The notes beneath the pieces are model-generated. The model did not search any database. It saw nothing but the letters and a program-made list of their open reading frames with translations, and had not been told where the DNA came from. A program made the position numbers and the translations under genes. A stretch of 64,000 bases of DNA from Ptychodera flava (taxonomy: Eukaryota; Hemichordata; Enteropneusta; Ptychoderidae). Positions within the stretch are counted from its first letter, which is position 1; the number at the start of each line of letters is the position of its first letter. The stretch is from contig NC_091933.1 of NCBI RefSeq assembly GCF_041260155.1, positions 4,069,001-4,133,000 on the forward strand. Direction: 5' to 3'. Below, piece after piece: positions 21,311 to 62,823 of this stretch.

Positions 21311-21316
21311 TTTATT
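21311..21316 (-). terminator. polyadenylation signal candidate for UQCC6
   Basis: A minus-strand AATAAA about 410 nt downstream of the UQCC6 stop codon. It is the nearest canonical hexamer that I noticed on this strand. Confidence 0.35.
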
Positions 21317-21722: not shown

Positions 21723-24700
21723 TTACTTTTGATCTTCTGCAGTCTCAGTAGAATTCCCAGCAGGTAGCTTGTCAGGGTCATCACCATTGTCTTCAGTTTG
21801 ACCAGGTACTGACTACAAATGCAAAACAATGAAGAAATATAAATTTAGCAGTTTTTACCAATATTTCCATTTAAAGCTATGAGTAGTGTGAAAAGTTATT
21901 CATTTAATAAATATTGTGGTAGGGAACTTGTTAATAGAACTGATATGAGGAAGAAGTATGACGAAGACTGGTGGTAAATTTTAACCCTTTCACCACCATG
22001 GGTTGGCCAATACCTTTTGTTATCAATGACGATTGTGGACCTGCTTGTTGGGAATTTGAAGTGAACAGGTTCATGAAAGGTATAAAATAAACATTTGCGC
22101 CTATGGATCTGGAAGAATGAATATTAATTAGACTGTTACTTTGAATTGCCACTTCTACTTCTACTAAATACTTTAGCCAATTTGTAATTTTTTTGAAATT
22201 GTGGCAAATATATACTTCTGCATTGCGATTATTTGTTGTGCAGTATTTTTTTCTTGGAGCATGTGGAAATGCTAAGATTTTGTTTTGTTAACACTGCCTG
22301 TATCTGTAATGCCTTTATTATTCTGGACAGTTTGTAAAATCTAGACTCAAGTCATCTGCAACAATGTAACTAGTGGGAGTTTTGCTGGTTCCTTTAAAAT
22401 TTTGCTTGCTCCGCCTGTAGCTTTGCAAAAAAAATCAGAGGAGCAATGTTTTTTTCCTCGTCCAAAGGGTCATATTGTAAATTATGCACATGACATGATA
22501 ACAGTATTTACAGAGGAGTGAGAGTCAGCTTTGATTTTGATTATTCACTCTAACTATTGGCCACAATCACACCATGGAAATAGTGTAACTTCCGATACAT
22601 GTGATAAACCTGCCAGTAATTGAAACTAATTATTTCATTTGGGGTCGTGTGTTCTCAGCCTCAATTCAAACACGATGACTTCCGCCATGTTTAAGTTTGA
22701 ATTATCTATGGTCCAAACACAGGCGACCCAATAAGTTCTGAGTTTTTCACACTGTTTTCTCTATCATTTTCTCTTCTTTCTTCATGCTCTGAATGATCGG
22801 AATAAATAAAATAAATGGTTTGTATAACCTAACCTAGCCTCTACAAGGGCGTATCTCTCATACACACATGCTGTAATTAATTAGTCAACACAACTAATTA
22901 TGCTAATCCGTGGACTTATCAGAGGTTGGTCAACATCGGAAAGATAGTGATGTTAATGAAAAAGGAGAAGGTATGAAGATCTTGGGAAACATGTCCCGAG
23001 GACGTCCGTAAACCTAGTGGACGCTTATATATTCATGATATGCGCAAACAAACACTGCTCATTATTCAAAAATAAACGGGAAGTTAGATCGAAAGGAACG
23101 CTGGAAACGCGCATGCTTTTCATTGCCAAGCGCCAAATTCTAACATAACTAATTATGGTCCTGCTCCATGTAACAAATGCCACCCAGAAAGTATCGACCG
23201 ACCAAGCAGAAAAAGATTGCCGGAGTGGCCGTTTCATGAGTTTTTCAACAACATTATATAGATGTATGTTTCATGTCGTCGTTTTCTGGGAGTGTATATA
23301 CCAAGTATAATTTACAAACCGCGTCGTGATTCAAGGCACAATGGTGACACATTAACAGGAGCACACACTGGAGAATTTTGGCCAGCACTGTGATTTTTTT
23401 AAACCAGTCACCTTCATTTCTCTGCACTCGCTATTAACTCCATGTCTACCGGTAACATATCGTTATTTTCTGTCTCAAAGTACGTACCAGCAACAGGCCT
23501 TTGACGTCAAAGTCGGTTGTTTTCTGGTATACGGTAGCAACCAAGCTCATGACTAGAATGACTCTACGGCGTCAAAGAGTTAATCTCGCCGGTTACTTTT
23601 TTCTCCTAAAGAGATTTGGTCGCTACATGGAGCTAGTTTCTAGCTCCATGGTCGCTACTAGTCTAGGGAATTCATCGATTTTCAATCGCGCCTTATACTG
23701 TTAGTGCACAAAATTCCCGAAGCGGCGCACGGGCTATGAAACTTCGTTTGTACTGTTAGGCTAGCTTTGGGTCCATAGCTGTGGTGTTTTCGGACGGGAT
23801 TTCTGCCTTTTACGGCTGGTTTTGACTTTAACGTCACCACCACAGCCATGGGAACGTCCATGTTCTGCCCGACAGCACGCTTGTCGCAACTTTGTTTGTC
23901 GATATTTCGAAAATTTTCCACCCAAATTGCCAACACTCATCGACAACATGGTTATTAGGGGCCTACCACTACCAGAAATCCGCTCAAAAATCACCAAACT
24001 ATCGCCGTTTTCCAGCTTTTTCCGACATGACTACTCGCAGACCGTTCTTTTTCTGGCGTACAAGCGATTGACGAGGCTCAGTGCAGCCCGTCACTAAAGT
24101 CACGTCAGCGGTGACCTCGCAACATCGACACACAAACTGACATCACCGATGATGTCGGCCACTACGTTAAGAAGCCTGTGAGAATTTTTACCAGCACTGT
24201 GAATTTTTTAAACCAGTCACCGTCATTTCTATTCACTCGCTATTATCTCCATGTCTGCCGGTAACATATAGTTATGGAGAAGTTTAGTTACACGTAATTA
24301 CGTTCCATCATCAGCTGATCAGTGATACCATACGTCGCGTACGTGTAGAACATACGTTCGGAACGGCAAACAACACCTCTAGGCCCACACATACAAAATG
24401 TGGTCATAATTACGTGTAGTATTTTTTAGATATTCTTGATTATTTCCGCGAATTTAGACAAGAAACCTTGTAAACTATCATGGAAAACATCTTTGATACC
24501 ATAATATTTCGTAGAGTTTGCACCAGCGTAAGCAGTACTTGCTATATGATTTCCTTACATGGACGAAATGTTGTTGTCTCATTCCACTTGTTATCTGACG
24601 CCGCCCCAAAGAGTTCTCCAAACCATATAAAAAACTGTATCAAAGAAAATCGGCTGATTAATTCGAGGATACGAGCTAGAATATTCCTCATATAAAATTA

Positions 24701-25767
24701 ATGTTTCTTAAAACTCAAACGAATTTCCAATGTTTATGAGAAAAATACAGCAAAATTATTAAGGCAGACCACCGTCCCTCCACCCACGGACGGTGGGCAG
24801 ACAAAACCTTAGCAACACCACCCGATTGAGAGAACCACGCTTAACCACGTACACAAACTTTGACCCTAGTCAAAATCAGGCTTGTCCCGGGAAATATGTT
24901 TACAAGTTTGCCCACATATAACAACGTAAAGGTCAAAGGTTTCAATTCCGACTTCTGCTTTACGGACGTCCTCATGCCATGAACTGCAGGCAAGGCACTG
25001 GCAGGGTTTGCACTGTTCGCGACCATTTAAACGTTTGAAATTAGAGTAGCTGACTCTCCTCGGCCACCAAAATACATTGGCTGCAGTAGATTGTGGATAA
25101 ATGGTCATGACTGGCCGCAATTTGGTAATTTCTGGACACATTTCAGGAGAGCTTCTTACCTTCCCGTTTAAGTAACCATTCCTATCTTTCGCGATGTTGA
25201 CAACCCGTAAAATCCCTGATAAGTCCACGGATTAGCATAATTAGTTGTGTTGACTAATTAATTACAGCATGTGTGTATGAGAGATATACGCCCTTGTAAT
25301 GGAGTGTAAAATAAATAAAGAGTCACAGAGGCTAGGTTAGGTTATATAAACCATTTATTTTATTTATTCCGATCATTCAGAGCATGAAGAAAGAAGAGAA
25401 AATGATAGAGAAAACAGTGTGAAAAACTCAGAACTTATTGGGTCGCCTGTGGTCCAAAGAGTGCCCTTGAACTATTTCCAAGAATGCAAAAGTTAATGAA
25501 TGACTGCAAACTATCACAGTACAGACTACTTTGCATTCCAAACATACAACAAGGATTTTCCCAGTATTTTCTCAGTGGTGAAAGCCATGCATCAAAAGCA
25601 CTTTTAGCAAGGGGCTTGAACATCTGCTTAATTGGTATCTGATACTATCTCATACTTACCAGGTCAGGCTTGTAAATCACGTGGACAAGCTGGGCTCCTG
25701 CAAGCATGGTGACAAGCCCTGCGGTTAAAAACTTGAGATACTGAGACCAAGGTACTCCTGCAGGCAT
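21723..25767 (-). CDS. UQCC6: BRAWNIN, complex III assembly microprotein
   Basis: Two coding exons, 25660-25767 (ATG) and 21723-21812 (TAA), give 65 residues against 71 in human C12orf73/BRAWNIN. The N-terminus MPAGVPWSQYLK followed by a hydrophobic helix (residues ~13-31) and YKPDL at 32-36 matches human MPAGVP...YYRPDL. The family sits in the mitochondrial inner membrane and is needed for early assembly of ubiquinol-cytochrome c reductase. The tail (from residue 37) is acidic and poorly conserved. Its first coding exon lies just downstream of UQCC5. An in-frame TAG precedes the ATG by eight codons, fixing the start. An AG at 25792-25793 could also act as an acceptor for a separate transcript. 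The 3.8-kb intron carries a 2.7-kb transposon. Confidence 0.9.
21981..22072 (+). repeat. dispersed repeat (AACCCTTTCACCAC type)
   Basis: This 92-bp block opens with TTAACCCTTTCACCACCATG, contains TTGTTATCAATG and TGTGGACCTG, and closes with GTGAACAGGTT. It is closely similar to 53507-53598 and, inverted, to part of 14255-14515. It lies in the UQCC6 transcription unit. Confidence 0.6.
22718..25451. mobile_element. 2.7-kb DNA transposon with ~200-bp terminal inverted repeats
   Basis: Ends read CACAGGCGACCCAATAAG and its exact inverse, flanked by GTCCAAA on both sides (22711-22717 and 25452-25458), a 7-bp target duplication (8 bp, GGTCCAAA, if the end is shifted by one). The inverted repeats extend inward to about 22950 and 25195 with few mismatches. 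The interior has a ~100-bp direct repeat (23371-23470 and 24179-24277). No transposase motif is recognised in its open frames (the largest is minus 24866-25228), so it is probably non-autonomous. The superfamily is unsettled: P- and hAT-like elements make 7-8-bp duplications. The interior has more CpG than its surroundings. It lies within the UQCC6 intron. Confidence 0.85.
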
Positions 25768-25828
25768 TCTGAATGCTGTCTTGATGTCTGCCTAGGTACA
25801 GATAATATTACTCACAGAGACTCTGGTA

Positions 25829-26892
25829 TTAATGTTGATCTTTTTCTTCTGCTAATCTCTCTGCTTGTTTCCTTCGATGAACATCATCTAAAAAATATGA
25901 TGAGTAAAGACATATAATATCCATTATTCTAGATATCCACTGTATACTTCGACTTTTACATATGACAATTACAAATATCATGGCAAAACAGCTGATGCAG
26001 GAACATTTCAAATTACACAGGGACTTTCCCACAAAAATATAAACAGCATATTTGTACAGAGATGGCAAGAAACCCCCTGTATTATTGAAATAAAACTGAG
26101 CATGCATATGCAAAAGTGCTGACCACGTTTCCGCTGTTTCTCAACCAAAAAAAAAAAAATTACAGAAAATACCAAAAGAACAACATGTAGCCGACAGTTG
26201 ATGACAAGAATATTTCTCTGTTGCATGTTTGCCTGCACTCAAGTTGCCCATAAACTGTAAATCGTACACAACTGCTTGCAAAAAAATATACGCAGCTGCC
26301 AGTGCCACACACTTTTCCTTGTTCACAATACATGACAGTGCTGTATACATTTGAGAGACATAAATATCAATGTAATAAAAAGCTATTCACTCGGAAACAT
26401 CAACTGGGGTTCTAAAAGGTATCGCTTCATTGTTGGATGGTGACTGACAACTTCAACCATAGACCCTAGATATCAAATGAAATTGAAATGAAAGAGAGAG
26501 GGAAAAAGAGAAAGGACACGAAAACATACGAATATCTGTTTCACATTAAACAGGCCTCTTGTTCTGCGGCCCCACCACATCGAAGTAAATGTATGCTACG
26601 GTACTGTCATGTGACGATACAGATCATTGGAGATCTCATCCCAGCCAACATTACAAGTTGATAATGTCTGAATATCAGATGAGATGTTCGGAGTTTTTTT
26701 AGAGTCTATAATGATATGAAACTTACAAAACGTTTCGCCACCAGGTGCTATTCTAGCATTTATCATGGTCCATTCTATTGCCGCTCCGACCAAAAAGAAA
26801 ACCGGTAAGAATCTATATATCCCGAAATACTTCTTGCCTGGCCACTTCTGAAGTAATCGGCGAAGTCGTCTGCTCCGCAACTGAGAGGGCAT
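25829..26892 (-). CDS. UQCC5: SMIM4, complex III assembly microprotein
   Basis: Two exons, 26727-26892 (ATG) and 25829-25887 (TAA), give 74 residues against 70 in human SMIM4. GKKYFGIYRFLPVFFLVGAA and EWTMI match human GKQRFGIYRFLPFFFVLGGTMEW. The splice joins ETF|YDVHRRKQAER, matching ETFYDVYRRKASER, which confirms the intron. It has a basic N-terminus (residues 1-21), one membrane helix (~24-40) and a charged C-terminus, as expected for a mitochondrial inner-membrane protein working with BRAWNIN in cytochrome b/complex III biogenesis. The stop codon is followed 61 nt later by the UQCC6 ATG in another frame, on what appears to be the same exon (25660-25887). Confidence 0.92.
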
Positions 26893-29800
26893 TGACTACG
26901 GACATGTGGGACACGCACCGCGTGTGTGCAGCCGTTGACTGTCGACCTTTCCTTCGTCGAGCACTACTTCTGCACTTGGAATGCAATGAAACTACTCTGA
27001 AAGAGTAAGTCGTGATCACGATTGACCAAGGAAAAACTCTATGTGTTATATAAGCTATTAACCGGCATGCAGGACTAGTCAACCGTGAGGCGAACTTTGC
27101 GTAAGGTCAAAGCGATTCATATCATTTCGTAATCAATGCACTCAACATGCTCAAATATTAGCCATTGCTTCAGATTCAGATTTGGATTTGGTTGCTCGAG
27201 ATCAGTGAAACCTACGTGCATGTGCAGTTGGAATAGTCTGCATGCAGATAGGAAATACAAAGCCTGAAACTATTAAAATGTCCGAAAGATGGGTACCATA
27301 GTGGATACGATCATGTGGAGATGCTTCATTAACTAAAGAAGTCATCAAAATAGATGTCTTGTCACATACATAATTTTTTCAGTAAGTGTTTACGAATTAT
27401 TTACAGGAAATATTTTGCAGAGAAAGGTTAACAAAGAAAAATATTTCGATCGTTACATACTAAGGTTTTCCTTTTAAGTGGCACAAAGTTGCAATTGATA
27501 ATTTCAGAGTGGAAGGAAACAAATAAAAAAAGGGAAAATGGTAGAAAAATAATTGTGGTGAATGGCAGTTTATACTCAAGGTTTAAGCATCAGAACATAA
27601 TCTATGTTTATTTCAACATTTTCTGATAAGGAAATTTCCATGTTTTGACAGAAATCTTTATTTACAAAAGTTCAAAGTGTAATTCAAAACGTATATTATT
27701 GATTTTCACCATACCACACTTTGTCCGAAAAAGTGTCTGAAAGTTTGAAAAGAAAATATTTCAATTCAGTTTTATTACATTTTAATTCATTTTCAATATA
27801 CCTCTTCCCTATAAACCAACCAGTGCAAGAAAACCATTGAACATAACAAGACATCTGGGCATAGGGGCTCAGTGTCTGATGTTTTCTTCTTGTTTGTGTT
27901 GATTTTAATGAAAACATGGAGTAAAAACAATATAGCTGAAACATGATGATATATTTTCAGTGTTTTGTTTGAAATTATAAGCAATAAATGTAATATGAAG
28001 TGTAAAATGAAAGCCAGAACTTTACGCATCCAACCCGAACGAATTCTGCCCAGACAAATACATTCAAGTATACAGAAAGTAATACTTGGATTTGTTTGTC
28101 TGGTAAGAGTGGTAGTTCTTGCAGAGTGTGCATCATGCTGTTCTGGCTTTCATTTTTACATTTTGTTTTTTATTTATTACTTTAATTTTGGAACAAACAT
28201 ACATTATGCATGTTTCAGCTATATTGTGATTTTACTGTATGTATTCATAAACAAACAAACAAACACACAAACGATGAGAAATTATTGGAGACTGAGCCCT
28301 CTGTGATCTAGGTAGGTATTTTTGAAAGCTTTCCTGCCTAGTGTGAAAAGTTATACCTGCGTTTATGTAATTATATCTTGACTGTCTACCCAACTAACTC
28401 ATTTCCATCTGCCCATTGGACGGGTGTTCCCTGTAACAAGTATTTCTTTAAAATCCTATTCATGCAACAAAGACATGTGATATGAATACTCATATTTTTT
28501 AACCTGATTCTTAGGGACCTTTCAGTTATTATTAGGAGGGTGGGTCGGGAATGGGGCGTAGGAGGGGTGTCATATTTTTTACAAACCTGCCCTCCACTCT
28601 TAATTAAATTCTGTGAAATGTTTACATTATTTTCTTTAAATACTGTATGAAAAACTGGTCATTTTTTTTGGAAATAAAATTTCTACATTTTGATTAATAG
28701 TCCTTTCAATTTTGCATATCATGATTTATCACTTTTTGTTCGGAATGTCACTCTTTCAACCCCTGCCATTTGTTAGAATGAGAATAGATAATACAGACAA
28801 AATTGTTCCAAATGTAGATTTCCAAATCTAGTTTTCAAATGAGATATTAAATTTCACAGAGTAGTATCAACTTTTTGCTTAAATCAATTTTTTAACATTA
28901 AATACAAAAATTGAGGTCTATCTCAAAATGTACTCCGGGCATCCTTCAAGTAAACCTACCATACTTAACTTTGGATTCTCTGTCTTTTGAAAATATATAG
29001 TAAGAAGGGATTTTCATGTCATCTTTGATAGAGATATTGCTTCTGAAAAATGTGCGTTGGCTAAGTGCCACCCAAGGTAGTGCATGATCCATTAAGGGTT
29101 AATTTTGAAGGGTTTTCTGGTAAGTAAGACCTAGTATAAAGTATATATATGAAAAACAAGGTCAAATTCCACAGAATTGGCAAATGATAGGGGCACAAAC
29201 AAAGAGGTGAGGACATAGGTGAACATTAGTAAACATGGATGTCAGCCGGGCAAAGCAGTTCCTGTAAAGTTATAAACGCATTATCAAGCTCTCAATTTAT
29301 ATAAACAAAGAAATACCTAGTTATATTTATTATTATTAGCTACTATTATTATACTGTAATACTTTATCTTTATTGAAGAAAATTTTAACTTATTTTTGTA
29401 TCATACTTTTATTGCCACAAATGTGATGTAAATCCTATATTTACAAGCAAGCAATAAAAATATTATTATTATTATAATTTGGAACCGCGGGGGGGGGGGG
29501 GTGTTATGTTTCACAAATTGGAAAAAAGGGGGAAGGTCACAATTTAGATAGGGGTTTTGGAGAGGGTCAAATCACATTTTACATAGCGGAACATCCCTGA
29601 GTTCCCCTGTCTCAGAGCCTCCCCCTACGAAATAACTGACAGCTCCCTTATGATATTTAAAAAGTCTTGAAAGAGGAGAAATGTGCCACATCGGAATCCA
29701 AAGCCAACTGCATGTAAAAGTACCGGAAGTAGCCGATGGCAGCCCTCTACGGTTTACGGCAGAGAGGAATTTTAAATAGTTTTCTGTATATTTGTATTAG

Positions 29801-30343
29801 AGGCTTACAATGGGACAAAGAACTTTGATAAAAGGATTTGAAAATGACAATTTTGCATAGGTATTCGGTTAGGTTACACAAACAACGTTTTCAAACGGCT
29901 GACAACGCTGAGGTCTGGATGTTTATTAATAACTCATTTGCTGGACATTGAAAACAAGGACGCCACCAACGGTGACCTGATACAAAAAATTTCCGATTGC
30001 TGGTTTCAGTCTGCAGATTCATTGTTCTCGCAGAGGATTAAGAGTGGCCTTTAAATATCATAAATAAGGTAAAGTATGTTCAGTTGATTCATAGAATGCG
30101 TCTTTTTATCCCGAAGATGAATTTTGTTAATCTCGATCTACATTTCTCCATTGAAATACAGACGGTATTCGATTAATCACACCTCGATACAAGTGGTCGG
30201 GTGCAAGGTACATGGCATACACTGCTTGTCTATTCGTGTTACTGAAACCCTTCGCACAGCGCTTTGTTAACATAACGAAAAAACATTTTAAGGAAGTATT
30301 TAACGGTTATTATTTTCTTCCCATCTACAGCCACGAGACAGGT
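26893..30343. other. divergent interval between UQCC5 and TDG
   Basis: It holds the UQCC5 promoter side (right of 26892, richer in CpG, for example around 26870-26960), a transposon-like element at 28513-29648, and the probable TDG promoter and 5' exon. GTAAAG after AAATAAG near 30069 could be the 5' UTR donor, and TCTACAG at 30324-30330 the acceptor just before the TDG start. No further gene is recognised. Confidence 0.5.
28513..29648. mobile_element. non-autonomous DNA-transposon-like element with nested old repeat
   Basis: The left end AGGGACCTTTCAGTTATT and the right end, inverted (AGGGAGCTGTCAGTTATT), are imperfect inverted repeats. Each is followed inward by a G-rich stretch (GGAGGGTGGGTCGGG versus GGGGGAGGC). 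The inner side of the right part has a 13-G run (29489-29501) preceded by an ATT repeat. The middle (28660-29055) is copy B of the dispersed repeat seen at 17520-17905. No coding capacity is apparent. No target duplication is resolved. Confidence 0.55.
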
Positions 30344-33300
30344 ATGGACTACCCTCAGCCGCCTCATCAACCCAGCCCATATTTGTAAGTACCAAAGTGG
30401 CAAAAATCCTGTGTACAAAATTTACAGCAGTCAATGTTGTCACATGCAAATTTGGCTTCACACCTGTAAATTGCCGTTCAAAGACAAAACATATGTAAAT
30501 TAACCGTAACTGTCACCAGACCTTCCTGAAAATATCTCAGCCGTCCTTCAGTTTAATTTCTCTTGTTTTTGTTCTGTGGATTTTCTTTCCTTTTTCTGAG
30601 GAAAATCCACATAAAGGTTTAGCAAATTGTATGATGACACAATTTTCCCCATTAATGTGGCAGGCTGTGTTTGCTTTGCAAAATTCAAAAGAAATAGTGT
30701 ATTCAAATTCTGCCTTGAACACTGCTGACAGATGTGAACAAAAATAATACAGCATGAGAAAAGTACACATTCAGCTTTACATGTTAAATTTTAAGTATAT
30801 GAAGTTAGTTTGATACGGAAACCACTAATTTCACAAGTAAAAACATCTGGCTCTGCTGGTCAGGACACATGTATAGACAGACACTGAATGGGAACCCCAT
30901 TGTTTTTCTTTGAATGGGTCACAATGGGTCCATGTGAAGGTTACCAACAATTATCAACAACAGTAGTTTTGTCAATCAGTGACTGTCTGAAGTAGTGCAT
31001 GTGTCACTTTTCTTGATGGTATGAAAGGTAGAAAAATTGTATATGTTGCTCTATGTGGGACTGTCTCAGATTGTCATATTTCAAAAAGTGAAATTCTCTT
31101 GTTTTTAGAAATCCTCAGTGAACCTCACTTTGGCTCATAAATTGGTGGCTGCAAGAATTATTAACCCTTTCCTGCCAGACAGTAACAACTGTATCACTTC
31201 CCCATCAGCAAAGTCAGTAAAAAGCCGTATTGAGCCAAAACATGACATATTTTCACCCACTTGGCTTGGTATGTTATAGAGTCTTTTGTCCAAAAAAATC
31301 AACTTTACAGTATTATGTTTTCAACAGCCTTCAAATGTACAGTATTATGTTAAAATACATCATATGGAATACGTTGTGTTTCATTAATTTTAACCATCTT
31401 TACCTGGTGGTGAAATATGGACTTGGCAGGAAAATTATTAAAAGAACAAAAAACAAACTATTTCAAAACCAAATTAAATTTTTACTCTGGACAGTGGCTT
31501 TGTGTGCTGCTCGTAAATATCCCATGGTTAACATGCATAACCTCAATGTCATGGTGAATGATGATATTTAGTATGAAATTTTAAATGATTTCCAAGTGTC
31601 TATGTGCTTTCATGCCACACTTCAGGGTTAGTCATACTGCCTGTAGAAGATGTATGCAGCAAACAAGGTTCAGTAACCCTTTGAACTTTTGTGAGTGACT
31701 GAGGGAAGAAAAAAAACTAAAGACATTGTCCAAAATTAAGATTGTGACTTGCACATCAAGCTCATGCAGGTATCAATAAATTTGTCAACAGTGAAACATT
31801 TGTATTTACAACCCCATATAAATTTAAGTTCCATACTCACAAATATAGAAAACAACGGAGTAAAAGCAAAAAGGGAACTTGACATTAAATGCAATTTTGA
31901 CATTTTCTTGCAGTATATATTTTATTGTAACTTAATTTCATCCTGTACGGTATGTTGTACTTTTGATTATGGTTTCTCTACGTGGGGGTAGAGTAACCCT
32001 GATTTGAATATGTCCTTGTTTCACATTTGAGTATTATTCTGTAGCTGTATGCAGACTTTTACATGGTACCTCCTATAAGACATCAACGCTTTGCACTCTT
32101 GAACTTTTTGTTCATAGGGAGGGGGAGGGGAAAGGGAAGGGGTTTTGAGCAAGATGCTAACTCTTCTGAGCCTATGTGACAATCTGAGATGGTCTGTGAG
32201 AAAACACCTTACTATGCACATAGTGAAAGTGGTGGATGAATGAAGAAACATGATTTTTCAAAAGTGTGTGTCAATATTGTGTTATTTTCACTTGAGGTTC
32301 AGTAATACAGGTACAGGTAGGATTGATCATCAGCAACACTTAAGACTAGTTATGATGCCATGGAAACAAGTGTTCATCAGAGTAGCAAGATTTCAACTGT
32401 GTACATGTTAGTGAAGAACTAACTTTTATTTGCCTTACCCTATCCAATAATGTTGATGTACCTACACCGTAAAGCTGTGAATATAGATGTATACCATTGA
32501 AAACTCTGGCCAAGTGAATTTTACCAGTTAGAGTTGTTTATTGATCAGTTTCATCCTGTGTGAATGATTATATGAATGCCTTGTAATCCTCAATTTAGCA
32601 TGATATGTTGGTTTCAATCGGGTTCTAACTCACAACGTACGGCACCCAGTCACCTAGTGGAGAAGCTACAGACAAAACTGCTCGGCGATATCCCCAATCT
32701 CAAAAAAGATTGGTTCAATGACCGAGCTAAGTTGTTACAATTTTTCTGACTGCGACCCCTGCATGTCTTTTCTCATTCTAAATCTAGTCACCCTTTGGTT
32801 AAGATGGAACCGCCAGACCAGAACATGGTTAAAATGGAACCTCCGGATCATCACCAACAAATGATGATGATGCAGTATCACCACCAGCAACAAGCACAGC
32901 ATCCACAGCACCCACAACAACACCATCAACACCCACAGCACCCGCAACAACACCATCAACATCCACAACATCCACAACATCATCAACAGCACCCACAACA
33001 CCACCAACAACAACAACACCCACAGCAACACCTTCAATATCAACACCAAATGCAGCAGCAGCAGCAGCAACAGCAGCCGGCAGTTTCAAACACTCCAACA
33101 AAGGGAAGGAAGAAAAAAATCAAGCAAGAAAAAATAACAGATGCATTCCCAGCCAAAAAAAGGAGGAAAGTTGACCGATTCCAAGGAATGCCAGAGGAAG
33201 AGGTTCTGAAGAGAACACTACCTGATCATTTAGATTATAACCTTGATATAGCCATTGTAAGTTGTTGTTTCAGTGCTAACTTCTTTGCTTATATCGTTGA

Positions 33301-36030
33301 CTGTTCTTCGCAAAGCATAATGGGGCAGTGTGCATGACCATGACAGTGTCCTTGTTAGATTTATCTTAGTCATTCTGGTATTCCTATTGCCTGATATGTA
33401 ACAGCATCAGTCATGTGATATATGATGGCATGAGTCATGTGATATGTGATAGCATAAGCCATGTGTATGTTTATAATTTCCATTCTCATAACATACATAT
33501 AAGCCATGAAGGTAAGATAACTAGCAAAAAAAAGAATTGAGAAATTATTGCTACAGCATGCTGGTTTACGTGACAAGATGCTTGCTGCTAACTTGGTACC
33601 CATGTAATTGGATCTAAGGCAAGCTAAGTCGTTTAATAACGCTTATCAATATATGCTTGCCTTTCAAAGTATTGCCCTCTGTATCCAACACTGAATACCT
33701 TGTATATCTTTTCAGGTTGGGATTAATCCAGGACTCTTTGCTGCCTTCAAAGGTCATCACTACGCGGGACCTGGAAATCATTTCTGTAAGACCTTTTTAC
33801 CCCCATTTTTATCAGTTTTCAGGAAATAGATCTTGTGAATATGGAAATTCTATATGAATGGTGACAATTCAGACAAGTCAAAACTCAATTCAGTTTTCGA
33901 TAATCCTGTAATTTCTGTGATACAATAGCCCTTTTGCGAAAAAGAACTGTCAGTGCTACCTTTAAATGTAACATTGTAGCAAGTCAGTATTTTACATCAA
34001 AGTGTAAATCAGGTTGAAAGGATTGTAAGACTTTCACTGCATAGTTTGCATTGAAATCTTATCCAACATAATTTGCCGTGTTGTAAGCACAGACAGGCTA
34101 ACCACATGCTATCAAATAATTTACCAGTTCTTTATAACAAAGGACCACAGAATTCTTTTCAAAAAAAATTCTCCCTATGTTTACATCTGTCAGCTTGGAA
34201 TTCTTGTACTTTCATTTCAGGGAAATGTCTGTATCTGTCGGGATTAATACCGGAACCGATGACGTGTCTTGATGATCACAGATTGAAGGAGTATGGTATT
34301 GGCTTTACTAACATTGTAGAACGAACCAGTAGAGGAAGTGCTGACTTAACAAGGTTTGCTTTCATTCATTTCCTTCAGTGTTCATACACACTTACATGTT
34401 ATACCCATGTCTGTCCATAAGTCTGTGTGGGTGGTGGTTTCAAAATCTGCCCATTGTAGTGTGACACACAATAAAGTTCACAAAGATGAGCACTTCTTTT
34501 TGGTGTTAGACACTAAAAGTAGAAGTACGTAGAGCCAGTATTTGGGTCAATCATATCTTTTTGGCTTTTTCATAATATTTAATCTCATGGTACAAGAAAG
34601 GAAAGGAAAAATGTATTGAGTTTTGTATTTTGATAAATGTTACAGTATTTGCGATTTTAAAACTGAGAGAGTGTTACAAGGCAAGCAGGAAGATCAAACC
34701 AGTGGCTTAGTTATTTTTAGGTGATGAAATTCAGGAAAGTACTGAATTGATTCATGAATTTGACGTTTCTGCTGCAGAAAAGAAATCAAAGAAGGTGGAA
34801 AGCTGTTGCTGAAGAAGATCCAACAATACAAGCCTAAGATTGTGTGCTTCAATGGCAAAGGAATCTATGAGATATTCAGCGGCAAAAAGGACTTTGAGAT
34901 TGGCAGGCAACCAGAACCTATAGAGGGCACAGATACAGTGAGAGAATCCCAATTCTTTGTTATTCAGTGTGTGTGTGGGATGAGTTTCCTAATTTTTGAA
35001 TGTTTGATACAACCTGATATGTACTATTGCAAGTGGATTAGAGTACGATAGCTATCTCATTAGCTGTATGTGTAAACCACAGTAGTTACCTCAATAGTGA
35101 TAGCATTTGACTTTATTAAACTGCATAAAACAATGAGGGAAATGAAAATTCAAAAGACACAATGAAGAAATGGGATCATGCATGTGATAATCCTTTCCTC
35201 ACACAATCAGAGATGAAACGGATGAATTCCCAACTTCTATGTTATCGCTCCTTCTCTCATTAATGTTTGTACTGTTTAGTTTGATACAGATTTCAATGTG
35301 AATGATAAAGCAATGACTGATACGACAAAATAAATGTAATTATCCCAGTTTCTCTCTATGACTCTTATTTAATGTAACTTTTATTGCTTTTCAGGTTATT
35401 TTTGTAATGCCTTCTTCAAGTGCTCGATGTTCCCAGTTTCCCAGGGCAACAGACAAAGTGCAGTTCTACCTCCAGCTGAAGAAATTGCGAAATGATCTGA
35501 CTGGTAGACCCCATTCACCAGATCCTATCATACCTCCACCACCTCCCCCAAAATCCAAGTCCAAGGGAGCCAAAGTCAAGACCGAAAACAACATGGCCAA
35601 CTCGTCCCAGCTCCAGCCCATCTTGTATGAAAACCAGGGATTTGTAGCAACTGCCCAGGCATCTTCAATGAACGCGATAGTGAAGTCAGAACCTCCTGAG
35701 GAGCCCCAAGGACCAAACAGCATGGGATTTGTCATCAAGCAAGAGCCACCTGACAGTGGATACGGTATCAACTCATTTGAACCCGGCAGCTTCATCGATA
35801 ATATTCCGACCATTCACAACTATCCTGCTGATCCGGCCATGGGTCACGGTATGCAGGGATGCATGCCGCACAGTAGAACAGTCATGCCCAGTGCATCAAG
35901 CCACAATCAGAATATTCAGCCCCAACAAGCAAACAACTTGGATCACCAGCTGCCGAATTTCAGCGATGCCTTCCAGGTGAAGCAGGAAGGTGGGCCTAAT
36001 ATAACATCATGTCATTACAATCCTCAATAA
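30344..36030 (+). CDS. TDG: G/T mismatch-specific thymine DNA glycosylase
   Basis: Six exons in phase: 30344-30384, 32788-33256, 33716-33785, 34221-34353, 34778-34937 and 35395-36030, giving 502 residues (human about 410). The glycosylase core spans residues ~140-320. [10 protein letters not shown] holds the catalytic Asn (N174), followed by [30 protein letters not shown] and [14 protein letters not shown], all hallmarks of TDG in the uracil-DNA glycosylase superfamily. TDG removes T or U from G mispairs and 5-formyl/carboxylcytosine in active demethylation. QEKITDAF with KKRRKVDRF (127-145) matches the vertebrate PCNA-binding degron. Unusual parts are a His/Gln-rich tract (35-110), PPPPPP, and seven hydrophobic-K-x-E SUMO motifs. 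The start follows a TCTACAG acceptor, so a 5' UTR exon is expected. Confidence 0.96.
32590..32760 (-). repeat. possible tRNA-derived SINE fragment
   Basis: Read on the minus strand, GTTGTGAGTTAGAACCCG resembles a degenerate B box with its preceding arm, next to ACTAGGTGACTGGGTGCCGT. No convincing A box, tail or second copy is seen in this window. It lies in the TDG intron, ending just before exon 2. Confidence 0.25.
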
Positions 36031-43323: not shown

Positions 43324-54756
<11,433 letters not shown>

Positions 54757-55207
54757 GTTGGCAATTTCTATGCATTTACTTATTCGCAAACTGTAAATTC
54801 GTTCATCAAAATATAAATTAAAATTACTCATAGGTCTTACAACCCAGTAGAAATAGATTTTTATACATCAAAATCATAAATTTAGATTTAAAATTATTTT
54901 AAATACTATTATATGCGTAATAAAATGAAATCAAGATATTCATGCAAAGAAGTTGTACGACAGTCTGGAAATGTAAATCCGAGTTGTTTGTTTGTGTTCT
55001 CTTCACACACGCTGGTATATCGAAACACAGTTAAGTAGCCACGCACGTACACTTAATTGTACTCCGAACCTGTACTCCTAGATTTCTCCAATTCATTTGC
55101 ACATGCAACGGGTGTATCATCAGATTAAAACAGAATGAAAACTTTCAAATCAAACGGGAGCGCTTTACTAAGGTAACCGCAGCTAGCACTGCGCTCTACA
55201 CGTTCGA
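54757..55207. promoter_or_regulatory. shared promoter interval of COG5 and DUS4L
   Basis: The two start codons face away from each other 451 bp apart, leaving room for two 5' UTRs and a common core. No TATA box is placed convincingly for either gene. CpG dinucleotides are scattered near the DUS4L side (55020-55210). The human COG5/DUS4L pair has the same arrangement as I recall it. Confidence 0.6.

Positions 55208-62823
<7,616 letters not shown>

Follow-up and report, generated by a model that had tools for sequence, protein, structure and literature searches.

The closest described system is the Drosophila sloth1/sloth2 gene (CG32736-CG42308). Its two products, orthologues of SMIM4 and C12orf73, are both translated from a single bicistronic transcript in which 5 nt separate the open reading frames (ORFs) (Bosch et al. 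2022, eLife, PMC9681215). The support in that paper consists of RT-PCR of the full-length transcript, a cDNA clone and translation reporters. The Kozak context is weak at sloth1 and optimal at sloth2, and reporters with an altered Kozak sequence or ATG support leaky scanning past sloth1. The proteins co-precipitate with each other, and overexpressing sloth2 without sloth1 kills, an effect that sloth1 rescues, which is a sign of dosage balance. A similar bicistronic pair is reported there in lamprey, the sea squirt Ciona and the choanoflagellate Salpingoeca urceolata, whereas in jawed vertebrates the pair is unlinked (PMC9681215). Human UQCC5 (SMIM4) lies on chromosome 3 and UQCC6 (C12orf73) on chromosome 12 according to the same source, in agreement with an earlier note on the DNA studied here. 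In human cells, loss of UQCC5 or UQCC6 lowers the level of the partner (PMC8719881).

We analysed a 64,000-nt stretch of DNA from the enteropneust Ptychodera flava, the whole of which is referred to as the window. On its minus strand, UQCC5 is followed by UQCC6 after a short spacer, in a differing frame and with space for a single exon to carry the junction. The locus comprises the following features:

26501 to 27350, minus strand: CpG-rich block spanning the 5' end of UQCC5, a candidate for the single promoter region; maximum CpG observed/expected ratio (o/e) 1.19
26727 to 26892, minus strand: coding exon 1 of UQCC5 (SMIM4, sloth1 orthologue; PF15114), ATG at 26892-26890, donor at 26726
25660 to 25887, minus strand: predicted shared exon, based on splice-site scores, with the end of UQCC5, the spacer and the first coding part of UQCC6
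25829 to 25831, minus strand: UQCC5 stop codon TAA
25768 to 25828, minus strand: intercistronic spacer of 61 nt, free of ATG, AATAAA and ATTAAA
25765 to 25767, minus strand: start codon of UQCC6 (BRAWNIN, sloth2 orthologue; PF14990), with A at -3
21813 to 25659, minus strand: UQCC6 intron of 3.85 kb, holding a terminal-inverted-repeat element at 22718-25451
21723 to 21812, minus strand: last coding exon of UQCC6, stop codon at 21725-21723
21311 to 21316, minus strand: AATAAA, candidate poly(A) signal for the whole unit

Family profile searches with the spliced products bore out both protein identities proposed in the earlier note. The 74-aa UQCC5 product matched PF15114 (E 7.7e-31; 106.2 bits, curated cut-off 27; covering positions 2-65 of the 67 in the profile) and the 65-aa UQCC6 product matched PF14990 (E 2.8e-20; 72.1 bits against a curated cut-off of 27; positions 1-43 of 46). 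Named hemichordate orthologues were recovered as well: among the 22 proteins listed for UQCC5, the closest named matches were a UQCC5-like protein of Glandiceps talaboti (78% identity) and a protein of Saccoglossus kowalevskii (72%), while the sole match listed for UQCC6 was a G. talaboti UQCC6-like protein (79%). There was no P. flava entry among the 22 proteins listed for UQCC5, nor was the single protein listed for UQCC6 from this species. In the protein collection searched, neither of the two proteins came up for P. flava, although their neighbour TDG did; tiny ORFs that share one message are readily overlooked by annotation. Pattern searches at the DNA level gave 11 matches in viral and 64 in prokaryotic contigs for UQCC5 and 19 in viral contigs for UQCC6, none of which was confirmed, as expected since the collections searched are non-animal. 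A search of solved structures returned one match, bacterial NuoN (E 2.4), to which we attach no meaning.

Every coordinate proposed for the junction holds, that is, the UQCC5 TAA, the UQCC6 ATG at 25767, the 61-nt gap and the difference in frame. The proposed room for one exon with both ORFs likewise corresponds to a predicted exon, which begins after an AG that precedes ATGATG and ends with CTG before GTAAGT. Because the two families are conserved and act in the same step, their adjacency is not an effect of chance ORFs. We consider it likely, with a probability of about 75% and in view of the published Drosophila case (PMC9681215), that the locus is the P. flava orthologue of the sloth1-sloth2 gene, one minus-strand transcription unit with UQCC5 followed by UQCC6. 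A promoter near 26.9-27.3 kb would drive one minus-strand transcript, which would be spliced 26727|25887 and 25660|21812 and polyadenylated after approximately 21.3 kb. The resulting single mRNA would carry UQCC5 and UQCC6 as two separate ORFs, and their co-expression may help to balance two mutually stabilizing complex III assembly factors.

The resemblance to sloth1-sloth2 extends to the orthologous pair, the identical order, adjacency, differing frames and a weak first and better second AUG, while the spacer is 61 nt in P. flava and 5 nt in the fly (PMC9681215). Transcript and translation were demonstrated in the fly, whereas in P. flava we infer them. In P. flava, an intron interrupts each of the two coding sequences. 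By report, the candidates in lamprey, Ciona and S. urceolata have a similar architecture of the same pair; P. flava, unlike these, belongs to Ambulacraria, a group that is not named in the available text of that report (PMC9681215). Human UQCC5 and UQCC6 are the same proteins in the same pathway but lie on separate chromosomes. The bicistronic architecture is thus already known, and P. flava adds a hemichordate member rather than a new kind of system, extending a published animal two-protein gene to hemichordates. The earlier note had presented the dicistronic pair as a surprise, which it is not, as the same pair, order, transcript and stoichiometry argument were published in 2022 (PMC9681215).

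Splice sites were scored with weight matrices of generic frequencies, so that the scores only rank sites. Two further sites bear on whether the locus makes one message or two:

25787, minus strand: best alternative acceptor (first base after the AG at 25789-25788), score 0.9
25810 to 25815, minus strand: GTGAGT donor-like site in the spacer, score 1.0, which would allow a UQCC5-only message spliced to 21812

The acceptor at 25787 lies 20 nt upstream of the UQCC6 start and scores highest among the 17 AG sites that were listed from 25886 to 25765. Its score is close to those of the two acceptors of the UQCC5-UQCC6 gene itself (1.3 and 1.8), if lower than at the four TDG acceptors (3.5-7.5). The donor-like site in the spacer outscores the first donor of UQCC5 (1.0 versus 0.2), and one donor-like site within the UQCC5 intron, at 26575, scores above 3. 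The earlier note had itself cautioned that the AG at 25793-25792 (exon start 25791) might splice a separate UQCC6 message. That AG exists but is outscored by 25787 (-1.0 versus 0.9), and the caution was justified, if somewhat understated, given this better acceptor and the separate protein records in Glandiceps. A 28-nt intron from 25815 to 25787 was also considered and was rejected as too short, 28 nt being below the size of a spliceosomal intron.

Acceptor 25787, which is usable as judged from sequence, would permit separate or fused UQCC5 and UQCC6 messages. Two overlapping genes would be one such arrangement, with a UQCC6 promoter in or near the UQCC5 intron, UQCC6 messages whose 5' exon joins 25787 (or 25791), and UQCC5 messages that either end elsewhere or use the site at 25815. 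The scores at 25787 and 25815, the site at 26575 and the fact that UQCC5 and UQCC6 of Glandiceps are separate protein records are all consistent with this arrangement. Matches of this kind are frequent, however, since roughly 8% of the AG sites on the minus strand of the window (3560 in all) reach the score of 25787, and the Drosophila orthologues share one transcript (PMC9681215). Scanned from 26900 to 25369, the minus strand contains neither AATAAA nor ATTAAA, and this lack of poly(A) hexamers from the UQCC5 start to 25368 also argues against two overlapping genes.

CpG content points in the same direction. Against a window median CpG o/e of 0.29, the shared exon reaches only 0.14-0.29, which ranks between the 24th and 51st percentiles for the window, and no CpG-rich block was found at UQCC6 that would mark a promoter of its own. 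The block at the UQCC5 5' end has counterparts at two other genes, as the first coding exon of TDG (30344) lies within a block at 29651-30450 and a further block, at 54451-55500, is found immediately upstream of the 5' end of COG5 (approximately 54.1 kb, minus strand). Because 8 of the 11 CpG-rich blocks in the window are away from any identified gene 5' end, one of them being a transposon-like insert at 22751-25450, this support for a promoter at UQCC5 is indirect. Taken with the hexamer scan and the Drosophila transcript, we regard two overlapping genes as unlikely. The dicistronic gene claimed in the earlier note stands as the best reading, which the Drosophila case makes likely; that the locus yields one message is the part we infer, in view of acceptor 25787 and the separate Glandiceps records.

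The UQCC6 intron element has terminal arms at 22718-22842 and 25327-25451 that are 99% complementary, and a second pair of arms at 22852-22927 and 25211-25286 that are 97% complementary. GTCCAAA abuts the element on each side, a likely target-site duplication, and CpG o/e is unusually high there. From these sequence features, the element appears to be a DNA transposon that inserted recently.

An acceptor ahead of the downstream ATG, together with 61-nt spacing, also matches the general form of operons in which spliced-leader trans-splicing cuts one pre-mRNA into two messages. The operons of nematodes, tunicates and chaetognaths have a short gap between two genes of one polarity, and Ciona has both operons and trans-splicing (PMC2481426). 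A leader joined at 25787 or 25791 would divide the P. flava transcript in the same way. However, the spacer contains no AATAAA or ATTAAA, although in a spliced-leader operon the upstream gene would be expected to have its poly(A) signal there. Furthermore, hemichordates are not named in the examined portion of the table of trans-splicing animals (PMC2481426), and the stem 'trans-splic' has no occurrence in the available text of the P. flava genome paper, which describes Iso-Seq and RNA-seq data (PMC11175523). Trans-splicing is, accordingly, barely plausible at this locus.

Joining exon 1 (end 26727) to 25787, unlike joining it to 25791, gives an open in-frame sequence consisting of UQCC5 residues 1-55, 7 linker residues and the whole of UQCC6. 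UQCC5 and UQCC6 might then also, or only, be made as one fused 127-residue protein. We give this only a slim chance, because any acceptor has a one-in-three chance of giving an in-frame join and the fusion would drop the UQCC5 C-terminus (YDVxRRK), which is kept in Glandiceps and Saccoglossus; two full separate proteins in Glandiceps argue against it as well. By the same splice choice, the locus could conceivably act as a switch, which we consider a long shot: exon 1 joined to 25887 would give two free microproteins, and exon 1 joined to 25787 would give the 127-residue fusion of the UQCC5 membrane segment with UQCC6. If true, the tandem protein could supply UQCC5 and UQCC6 in an exact 1:1 ratio.

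For a single mRNA with two separate ORFs, the start codon contexts bear on how UQCC6 would be reached. With T at -3 and C at +4, the AUG of UQCC5 is in a weaker context than that of UQCC6 (A at -3, C at +4). Between these starts there are five further AUGs, one of which opens a short ORF:

26753 to 26773, minus strand: 6-codon out-of-frame ORF inside UQCC5, its AUG in strong context (A at -3, G at +4), a possible reinitiation stepping stone

This ORF begins at transcript offset 119 and ends at 140, 146 nt ahead of the UQCC6 AUG. We expected few intervening AUGs under leaky scanning, an expectation of our own that lies outside the published definition. In 5000 synonymous randomizations, the UQCC5 coding sequence showed no AUG depletion (6 observed versus 4.9 +/- 1.1 expected; P(<=6) 0.94). 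Simple leaky scanning has thus left no mark on UQCC5, and the sequence does not favour a plain leaky-scanning model. The mechanism that we tentatively prefer for UQCC6 translation is leaky scanning combined with reinitiation after a short ORF. Some ribosomes would bypass the weak UQCC5 AUG, and part of these would translate the 6-codon ORF at 26773, reinitiate and reach the better UQCC6 AUG. Separately, a 30-codon ORF (26813-26905, minus strand) begins with an out-of-frame ATG at 26905 and overlaps the UQCC5 start, which is relevant if transcription begins upstream of this ATG.

The UQCC5 intron is 0.84 kb long, in phase 1 and placed after F55. Unspliced window DNA across its start reads ETFCK, because T followed by GTAAG is read as TGT AAG. 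Among the 22 UQCC5-family proteins, 8 (P0009-P0013 and P0018-P0020; unnamed or partial) have NFCK at the intron site and then diverge. These proteins appear to be unspliced gene calls across the same phase-1 intron in other animals, which would be insects judging by their best-named relatives. The intron may therefore be old and common to hemichordates and arthropods.

The sloth1 and sloth2 genes are described as paralogues by Bosch et al. 2022 (PMC9681215). Comparison of the P. flava UQCC5 and UQCC6 proteins by blastp gave an E value of 9.5 with only 3/5 identities, and hhalign gave a probability of 0.1% with a UQCC6 alignment built from 2 sequences only, a weak test that lends paralogy no support.

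Upstream of UQCC5, the locus adjoins a gene that bears on the history of the pair:

30344 to 36030, plus strand: complete coding sequence of TDG (thymine DNA glycosylase), which lies head-to-head with the pair and has its first coding exon at 30344-30382

Six coding stretches of P. flava TDG were mapped to 30344-36027, including the short first coding exon and a glutamine/histidine/proline-rich N-terminal exon, and a 388-residue piece matches a P. flava TDG protein (P0024) with 100% identity from end to end, which identifies the species. The UQCC5 ATG (26892) and the TDG ATG (30344) are 3.45 kb apart in head-to-head orientation. Human UQCC6 and TDG are, we presume, also divergently transcribed. 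In Glandiceps talaboti, UQCC5, UQCC6 and TDG are each on a contig 35921338 in length, which we read as one chromosome; Saccoglossus kowalevskii was matched in the protein searches for UQCC5 only. Human TDG and C12orf73 are described as 'neighboring' on 12q23.3 (PMC11714271), a chicken chromosome 1 gene list gives GLT8D2, TDG, C12orf73 and HSP90B1 (printed HSP9OB1) in the part available (PMC12937304), and a review legend describes Brawnin as encoded by a sequence hidden within Tdg (PMC12455275).

As UQCC6 adjoins TDG in human and chicken too, UQCC5 was probably the mover. The simplest reading is that the deuterostome ancestor had a UQCC5-UQCC6 unit next to TDG, from which UQCC5 moved away in the lineage of jawed vertebrates. 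The TDG linkage thus suggests that, when the pair was split in jawed vertebrates, UQCC6 remained and UQCC5 departed. Our literature search found no published use of TDG to tell which gene moved.

Elsewhere in the window, exons at 47211-54217 (minus strand) were assigned to COG5 (conserved oligomeric Golgi subunit 5). Single-exon Pfam matches to COG5_N (25.6 bits) and COG5_C (22.4 bits) are both weak and below the curated cut-offs, and the assignment is tentative. A long tandem repeat at 51083-52201 (plus strand) is open in several frames and is probably a minisatellite, not a gene.
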